DNA of 64,000 nt, from the NCBI GenBank assembly GCA_951812975.1, contig CATOTC010000001.1, positions 962,001 to 1,026,000 of the forward strand, read 5' to 3'. This document shows, piece by piece, positions 20,649 through 52,146 of the stretch. Source of the stretch: an uncultured Acidimicrobiales bacterium. Lineage in GTDB: Bacteria > Actinomycetota > Acidimicrobiia > Acidimicrobiales > Aldehydirespiratoraceae. The notes under the pieces were generated by a model, which saw only the letters and a list, made by a program, of their open reading frames with translations, was not told the origin of the DNA and ran no database searches. Made by a program: the position numbers and the translations under genes. How positions within the stretch are numbered: the stretch's first letter is position 1; every line of letters begins with the position of its first letter.

Positions 20649-20690
20649 ACAGGTGGGGTGTCCCTGTGGGGACACCCCACCTGTAGTTTT
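20649..20690 (+). terminator. Rho-independent terminator
   Basis: ACAGGTGGGGTGTCCC-TGTG-GGGACACCCCACCTGT (16-bp perfect stem) then AGTTTTTG. Confidence 0.9.
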
Positions 20691-50550: not shown

Positions 50551-50940
50551 CTATTCGTCTGTCGGCGATTCGGGTGGTTGTGAGGTGCCGATCCCAGGCG
50601 GGCCGATCCCCAGATGACCTTCGATGCGAGCCAACCTCTCCCTGACGTCTCCCAAACCGATGCCGAGCACCTTGATCTCCCCGCTCAGCTTGGTGTCGAG
50701 AGTCTTGATCTCCCCGCTCAGCTTGGTGTCGAGAGTCTTGATCTCTCCGCTCAGCTTGACGTCGAGAGCCTTGTGATCAGCGCGCAGTTCGGTGCCGAGA
50801 GCCTTCACCTCAGCACGGGTGCCATTGTTGAGCTGAATCATGAGGTCACGGGTCTTGGTGTTCTCACGGGACTGGTGCCAAGAGTTGCCGAGCATTGCCA
50901 CGAACAACGTCGAGATCATCGCCAACAGGGCCGCGTCCAT
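50551..50940 (-). CDS. Membrane-anchored coiled-coil protein with LDTKLSGEIKT repeats
   Basis: N-terminal TM-like segment then heptad-like repeats; 33-bp tandem DNA repeat at 50671-50769. Confidence 0.65.
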   Translation of the reverse strand: MDAALLAMISTLFVAMLGNSWHQSRENTKTRDLMIQLNNGTRAEVKALGTELRADHKALDVKLSGEIKTLDTKLSGEIKTLDTKLSGEIKVLGIGLGDVRERLARIEGHLGIGPPGIGTSQPPESPTDE

Positions 50941-51125
50941 GTATGCAGCCTAGTCGGGACGTTCGAGTTGTCAACTCAATAACATGAAATAACATTAAAA
51001 TTCCCCCCGGCATCCGTTCCGCGGCCAACTCAGAGCCAGCAGGTCCGAATAATTCGGTTGACAGGTATGCTGAAACTCGCCAATCTGGTTTTCGCCGGAG
51101 TTTCCGGCCGCAGGACAGGACCGAC

Positions 51126-51266
51126 ATGAGCAACATTCACCGCACCGATTATCAGCATCAAGCTGACATCGCCGCGCGCGTAAATGTGCAGACGGTCATG
51201 CCAGCTTCTTGGTTTACCACGAAGCCGTATCACACCCAGCGGCCCTTCGGCGCTCCCTCCGGGTAA
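51126..51266 (+). CDS. 46-aa leader peptide (uORF) upstream of the WhiB7-like gene
   Basis: ATG...TAA: MSNIHRTDYQHQADIAARVNVQTVMPASWFTTKPYHTQRPFGAPSG; purine-rich AGGACAGGA upstream; too short for the supplied ORF track. Confidence 0.6.
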   Translation: MSNIHRTDYQHQADIAARVNVQTVMPASWFTTKPYHTQRPFGAPSG

Positions 51267-51288
51267 CTCGACCCAACAAACGGGAAGT

Positions 51289-51329
51289 ACGCAGAAAGGC
51301 CGCTGGTGAACCCAGCGGCCTTTCTGCGT
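51289..51329 (+). terminator. Attenuator-type hairpin in the WhiB7-like leader
   Basis: ACGCAGAAAGGCCGCTGG-TGAAC-CCAGCGGCCTTTCTGCGT, 18-bp perfect stem, no U-tract; competing copy of the 3' arm at 51234-51247. Confidence 0.8.
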
Positions 51330-51436
51330 TGCCCGGCCAACATCCGCCGCACAAGACGCGCAAGAACCGCCCAGTAACCGACACAGACAGAAATCCACGC
51401 CACAAACAAAACCCAAGCACGGAAGGAGACGGGGAC

Positions 51437-51799
51437 ATGTCAACCCTCGTCGACATAACTGAACAACTCCAAGCCGACAACACCGCCTGGGAGACGCACG
51501 CGGCCTGCAAGGCGGTCGACAACGCCTATGACCTGTTCTTCTCCGACGACATCGGAGAGATCTCGGCCGCGAAGCGCGTCTGTGCCGAGTGCCCGGTGAT
51601 AGCCCCCTGCCTTGAGACTGCTCTGGACAACCAGGAGCAGTGGGGAGTCTGGGGTGGGCAGCTCTTCGTGAACGGAGAGATGTTGTCCGTCAAACGGCGT
51701 AGGGGCCGTCCTCCCAAGGTGGCTCGTCCCGAGGATTTGATGCCGGTCGTTCCGGTGCCGATACATCTTCGGGAACGGGCAGAGCGGCGGACCGCTTAA
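51437..51799 (+). CDS. whiB7: WhiB-family Fe-S transcriptional regulator, WhiB7/WblC-like with AT-hook
   Basis: C...CxxC...C cluster ligands (ACKAV..VCAECPVIAPCL), GVWGGQLF followed by KRRRGRPPK AT-hook; RBS GGAAGGAG. Confidence 0.85.
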   Translation: MSTLVDITEQLQADNTAWETHAACKAVDNAYDLFFSDDIGEISAAKRVCAECPVIAPCLETALDNQEQWGVWGGQLFVNGEMLSVKRRRGRPPKVARPEDLMPVVPVPIHLRERAERRTA

Positions 51800-51875
51800 C
51801 GGCGCTGATCGACCACTCCCCCAAGAACCCGGGCAACGGTTAAAGCGAGCCCCGGTCCTTGGTCGATCAGCGCCG
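51800..51875 (+). terminator. Long hairpin immediately after the whiB7-like stop codon
   Basis: CGGCGCTGATCGACCA (51800-51815) / TGGTCGATCAGCGCCG (51860-51875), 16-bp perfect stem, no U-tract. Confidence 0.55.
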
Positions 51876-51942
51876 GAGCGGCCGCGTTGCTATCGCCGGG
51901 CGCAGCCGGAGCCGCCAGATGGTGGCGCCGAATGGCTGGCGC

Positions 51943-52146
51943 GTTCTGCAAGATGTTGGCGCCGGGTAGTTCGCGCGTTCTGCAAGATGTTGGCGCCGGG
52001 TAGTTCGCGCATTCTGCAAGATGTTGGCGCCGCGTAGTTCGCGCATTCTGCAAGATGTTGGCGCCGCGTAGTTCGCGCATTCTGCAAGATGTTGGCGCCG
52101 GGTAGTTCGCGCATTGTGCAAGATGTTGGCGCCGGGTAGTTCGCGC
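51943..52146 (+). repeat. 34-bp tandem repeat x6 (minisatellite)
   Basis: GTTCTGCAAGATGTTGGCGCCGGGTAGTTCGCGC; starts at 51943, 51977, 52011, 52045, 52079, 52113. Confidence 0.97.

Follow-up and report, generated by a model that had tools for sequence, protein, structure and literature searches.

Evidence for a uORF-controlled transcription attenuator upstream of whiB7 in the Acidimicrobiia

Background

The attenuators of whiB7 and wblC are reportedly the subject of studies by Burian and Thompson in 2018 and by Lee, Lee and Roe in 2022. The whiB7/wblC leaders of Mycobacterium and Streptomyces are described as combining a uORF with an intrinsic terminator (PMC11550727, PMC4128351, PMC13393426), and an antiterminator which overlaps both uORF and terminator sequence is described as well (PMC11550727, PMC10727445, PMC13393426). 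The promoters activated by WhiB7/WblC carry a motif 3 bp upstream of the -35 element, with a spacing of 16-19 (PMC7157823, PMC10727445). Other attenuators suitable for comparison are those of the trp/ilv type with leader peptides, for example that of ilvB1 in M. tuberculosis (PMC13236596), and those of antibiotic-resistance genes, ABC-F and other, including vmlR, are5sc and tiaA (PMC12421871).

The leader described here is found in a 64-kb window (the whole stretch of DNA that was analysed) of a 3.0 Mb genome whose named relatives are Acidimicrobiia, and it is very probably a uORF-controlled, ribosome-dependent transcription attenuator of whiB7. With the known whiB7/wblC attenuators it shares a uORF, a putative terminator hairpin, an overlapping antiterminator, the whiB7 gene and an AT-rich box 3 bp before the -35 element. 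Compared by published descriptions, it differs from them in belonging to the class Acidimicrobiia and in its unrelated uORF peptide, as well as in an 18-bp hairpin with, in the window's genus, a weak T-tract. An earlier sequence-only reading of this DNA had seen in the layout what looked like a distinct solution. This can no longer be maintained: the same layout is found in Mycobacterium, Cellulomonas and Frankia, and the overlapping antiterminator had already been published. Judged by its sequence, the leader is a member of the known whiB7/wblC switch type. The leaders of Mycobacterium alsense, Cellulomonas and Frankia fold the same way and specify unrelated peptides. The M. alsense whiB7 uORF (L108, -334 to -175 relative to the match) has a very high alanine content (MITNAFGVGVAAAAPAPAPSLAAHAAETAVRADALKHRAAAATDPSVDRGPT), in keeping with the induction by alanine starvation reported in mycobacteria.

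Within the literature searched, the switch is new for the Acidimicrobiia. Of the papers found that name both whiB7 and Acidimicrobiia-type taxa, one records that marine Acidimicrobiales have a whiB7 clade of their own, and the leader is not described in the whiB7 passages found in any of them.

Results and discussion

The locus

The uORF, the 18-bp hairpin, the 13/14 copy of its arm and the WhiB gene all lie exactly where the sequence-only reading had placed them, correct to the base. The features of the locus are:

51048-51054, plus strand: AT-rich box of the WhiB7 type, AATAATT, 3 bp upstream of the -35 element
51058-51086, plus strand: predicted promoter, with -35 TTGACA at 51058-51063, a 17-nt spacer and a -10-like CAATCT at 51081-51086
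51094-51108, plus strand: small hairpin, GCCGGA..CCGGC, where the transcript is predicted to begin
51126-51266, plus strand: uORF of 46 codons, ATG at 51126, stop codon TAA at 51264-51266
51236-51306, plus strand: predicted antiterminator, a long interrupted stem whose base CCAGCGGCC (51236-51244) pairs with GGCCGCTGG (51298-51306)
51289-51329, plus strand: putative terminator hairpin of 18 perfect pairs with a 5-nt loop
51437-51799, plus strand: whiB7 orthologue, 120 aa, with four cysteines, a GVWGG turn and an RGRPPK AT-hook
51800-51875, plus strand: strong hairpin directly 3' of whiB7, MFE -45.3 kcal/mol, z -4.3

The protein encoded at 51437-51799 matched the Pfam WhiB model at 1.1e-18 (67.9 bits; cut-off 23.6); an NCBIfam search with it returned nothing. 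In an alignment of 19 proteins the four cysteines and the G(V/I)WGG turn of the WhiB domain form invariant columns, and all 19 possess a C-terminal KRRRGRPPK-like AT-hook which aligns with the RGRPRK of M. tuberculosis WhiB7. Against solved structures the family profile scored best with M. tuberculosis WhiB7 (1e-18), the next Wbl proteins following at 3e-12. By these sequence comparisons the protein is a WhiB7 orthologue, more similar to WhiB7 than to the remaining Wbl proteins. Orthologues are present in 25 of the 37 genomes sampled from the family, the window's own genome counted, and no close whiB7 match was found in family genomes G002, G007, G009, G017, G022, G027, G032 and G035. The gene appears to have been lost in entire genera, g5 for example, and also in one genome of the window's own genus that is 98% complete.

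The uORF

In each of the 25 family orthologue leaders the uORF is open and has a shared C-terminus, with an end motif resembling TKPYxxQRPSGAPPG; in the window the C-terminal sequence is TKPYHTQRPFGAPSG. The hairpin and a promoter with the WhiB7-type AT box accompany the uORF in all 25. The sequence-only reading had made its case depend on conservation of the uORF or of the segment within it that duplicates the hairpin arm; both are conserved in this set, which speaks for that reading. An SD-like AGGA (51117-51120) lies ahead of the uORF start.

High third-position G+C is a sign of translated sequence in genomes of this kind. Over 72 uORF bodies the G+C content is 0.73 at the third codon position as against 0.56 at both the first and the second, a bias which marks the uORF as a probably translated frame. 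The peptide itself is weakly constrained, with a pN/pS of about 0.6-0.9 in most groups. In the uORF bodies of 72 Acidimicrobiia leaders alanine makes up 16.8% of residues (9.9% expected from base composition, 12.0% in proteins). Proline accounts for 3.7% in the same bodies, compared with 12.5% expected from base composition and 4.9% in proteins, and is common only in the uORF tail, where pairing requires C-rich codons.

Promoter and 5' end

The AT-rich box is conserved across the family leaders as a TAATTCGGTTGAC-like sequence. Of the promoter, GTTGAC is invariant in the aligned family leaders and lies three bases after the box; a 17-nt spacer leads to a weak -10 element in which only A2 and T6 are kept. 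The arrangement of box and promoter at the window's leader matches the published WhiB7/WblC spacing, and transcription is predicted to start near 51094, upstream of the uORF. At this predicted 5' end GCCGGA...CCGGCCGC is conserved in the family, followed by CGC and the ribosome-binding site of the uORF. In the folding model the 51094-51108 hairpin is a weak competitor of the antiterminator. A 5' segment that pairs with the uORF tail in the manner of a trp leader was considered and rejected; the conserved GGCCGC near the 5' end weakens the modelled antiterminator by no more than a few kcal/mol.

The duplicated arm and the predicted antiterminator

The hairpin at 51289-51329 consists of the arm ACGCAGAAAGGCCGCTGG, the loop TGAAC and the arm CCAGCGGCCTTTCTGCGT, the 3' arm continuing into TTTCTGCGTT. 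Only one other perfect inverted repeat (arms of at least 14, loop of at most 10) occurs in the window, at 20649-20684, with 16 pairs and a 4-nt loop. Inside the uORF, ACCCAGCGGCCCTT (51234-51247) is a 13/14 copy of the hairpin's 3' arm. A chance origin of this duplicated arm is excluded, because no duplicate of 13/14 or better arose in 5000 dinucleotide shuffles of the 199-nt leader, the best being 12/14 in nine of them. A 256-nt leader has a far more stable fold than its shuffles (z -8.0). A search of 50900-51900 against Rfam gave no match at the gathering score, only chance miRNA-like matches.

In the predicted antiterminator the final ~10 uORF codons pair with the region that begins at the stop codon and reaches to the 5' arm of the terminator; the stop codon itself lies in a small apical stem. 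The duplicated arm had been proposed to act as antiterminator. The predicted pairing of the uORF segment with the 5' arm is supported; the structure extends beyond the 12-bp duplicate, which forms the base of a longer stem. The calculated stability lies between -29 and -49 kcal/mol in each of the 25 family leaders, and in all 25 the native uORF tail is more stable than the mean of its synonymous recodings (mean z -2.0).

Because the upper stems shift from one species to the next, column-wise pair counts on a MAFFT alignment were equivocal, and 28 of 500 shuffles attained the covariation score. We therefore turned to swap and shuffle tests that need no alignment. For 37 diverged leaders with tails less than 75% alike, the native pairing energies summed to -1212 kcal/mol versus -882 (sd 21.6) when the halves were permuted, and the lowest of 20000 permutations reached -980 kcal/mol. 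Against tails shuffled at constant dinucleotide content the native mean z was -3.8, with 34/37 leaders below -1.64; here, as in the recoding and swap controls, the leaders are kin by descent, so that the samples are not independent.

A covariance model built from the 25 family leaders was used for a blind search of 247 genomes of the class. It gave 19 matches, one per genome, of which 17 lie 5' of a gene with the GVWGG..GRP signature and the remaining two correspond to chance expectation. By sequence, the two halves of the antiterminator are shown to be co-adapted across the class, and this class-wide co-adaptation is the main added value of the present analysis. The central proposal of the sequence-only reading, a uORF-controlled attenuator before a WhiB7 orthologue, is strongly supported by conservation, by the swap and shuffle controls and by the covariance model.

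The putative terminator and the spacer

Between uORF and whiB7 the family leaders possess a GC-rich hairpin whose 5' arm contains GGCCGC (or GGCCGT). In the window's genus the T-tract is poor and situated within the stem, and no terminator is called there by a strict scan. Elsewhere in the family the hairpin is shorter and followed by TTTCTGCTTTT, with a good T-tract.

The poor T-tract in the window's genus would agree with a simpler explanation, namely a plain terminator or spacer hairpin accompanied by a chance ORF without a role, and the spacer at 51330-51436 could contain the whiB7 promoter which this requires. We consider it exceedingly improbable. The uORF tail and the strand downstream of it are conserved and co-adapted, and the blind matches of the covariance model sit at whiB7. 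The conserved promoter lies upstream of the uORF and puts the start at ~51094 instead of downstream of 51330, the spacer 3' of the hairpin is poorly conserved, and a strict promoter scan of 51330-51436 found nothing.

The proposed switch

As the readout of the attenuator model we used the free-energy cost of opening the 5' arm of the terminator; the fraction of the arm that is paired was dropped as a poor readout. For an RNA ending just past the 5' arm this cost is ~13-15 kcal/mol without a ribosome or with a ribosome far upstream, and it drops to ~3 kcal/mol once the P-site has advanced from codon -14 to codon -11 relative to the stop (median of 76 leaders). The model thus locates the switch ~13 codons ahead of the uORF stop, which in the window corresponds to Lys33-Pro34-Tyr35. 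The idea that full translation masks the uORF segment and that an upstream stall exposes it agrees with the model of the 76 leaders, where late translation of the uORF frees the terminator arm and an absent or far-upstream ribosome leaves it paired. A ribosome that has arrived at the stop codon has the antiterminator base behind it, where pairing is sterically uncertain in the model; masking would be incomplete if pairing across such a ribosome is possible.

The equilibrium energies in the window are -36.6 kcal/mol for the terminator versus -34.5 for the antiterminator (-28.6 in three relatives), and in the window's genus the terminator equals or exceeds the antiterminator in stability. Since the leader's own terminator rivals the antiterminator at equilibrium, the switch must be kinetic.

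The following course of events is proposed. RNA polymerase would start near 51094, at a promoter built like those activated by WhiB7, and a ribosome would enter the uORF during synthesis of the leader. On reaching the last ~13 codons it would melt the antiterminator, whereupon the terminator hairpin could form and transcription would presumably stop before whiB7. If initiation fails, or if the ribosome halts ahead of codon 33 or so, the uORF tail would capture the terminator 5' arm first, and the polymerase would read through into whiB7. WhiB7 would then probably activate its own promoter. Antibiotics or starvation may serve as inducers.

A long leader with a translated uORF is also what one would expect of translation attenuation at the whiB7 ribosome-binding site, or of uORF translation shielding the RNA from Rho, and such systems occur in other bacteria. 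We regard this as very unlikely here, since the conserved pairing stops at the terminator arm, ~100 nt before the whiB7 ribosome-binding site, and the family has a conserved GC-rich hairpin with a T-rich tail. A Rho model moreover predicts the opposite sign, in that lost translation would lead to termination.

It is somewhat less improbable, though still unlikely, that the leader works as an arrest peptide or amino-acid-specific sensor, in which a given peptide or codon (for instance KPY, or the Ala-rich middle) would be the signal and RNA pairing would play a secondary part. Lys-Pro is kept in 25/25 family uORFs, at the modelled switch point, the uORF bodies are enriched in alanine (16.8%), and mycobacterial whiB7 also answers alanine starvation, according to work cited in PMC10727445 and PMC11550727. 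Against this, the peptides of other families share almost nothing past an RP/KP-like end that is largely explained by RNA pairing, the amino-acid constraint within groups is weak, and whiB7 elsewhere answers many unrelated inhibitors.

As proposed, the whiB7 attenuator resembles those of the trp/ilv type in that the position of the ribosome in the leader ORF selects antiterminator or terminator. Unlike them, the window's uORF is without a run of codons for one amino acid, its coding tail is itself the antiterminator strand with the stop codon in the cap, and complete failure to translate also favours readthrough in the model. With vmlR, are5sc and tiaA it would share the principle that a drug-stalled ribosome on the uORF favours the antiterminator, which for the whiB7 leader is a proposal. 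The uORFs of are5sc and tiaA are tiny and stall ribosomes at the start codon, whereas here they have 46-50 codons and the gene controlled is a regulator.

The whiB7 switch extends deep into the mostly uncultured Acidimicrobiia; intrinsic control of the drug response is therefore probably an old trait of the phylum. The diverged leaders supply natural covariation for a precise model, with the switch ~13 codons before the stop and readthrough as the default when translation fails, and they argue for an RNA-family entry. The chances seem to us evenly balanced that these leaders form one ancient RNA family outside Rfam, built as a single long hairpin from the uORF's coding end and stop codon together with the terminator 5' arm. 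Such a family would read completion of the last ~13 codons whatever the block, and would have persisted in at least two classes of the Actinomycetota while the peptide was free to change.

Regulon scan and flanking sequences

The sequence-only reading had predicted an antibiotic-inducible resistance regulon. A strict promoter pattern occurs at four sites of the genome, the one at whiB7 being the only plausible one. The other three were rejected as regulon members; they lie in or beside unrelated genes and their number is near chance level. The WhiB7-type box is absent at four putative ABC-F and HflX genes.

Directly 3' of whiB7, the hairpin at 51800-51875 is the probable end-of-gene terminator. 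Just 3' of the gene there is also a tandem array (51917-52146) comprising 6.8 copies of a 34-bp unit, AGATGTTGGCGCCGGGTAGTTCGCGCATTCTGCA, with 94% matches. A second set of tandem repeats, of 33 bp (50671-50773), is located within a minus-strand ORF (50551-50940) and encodes a repeated KTLDTKLSGEI peptide.
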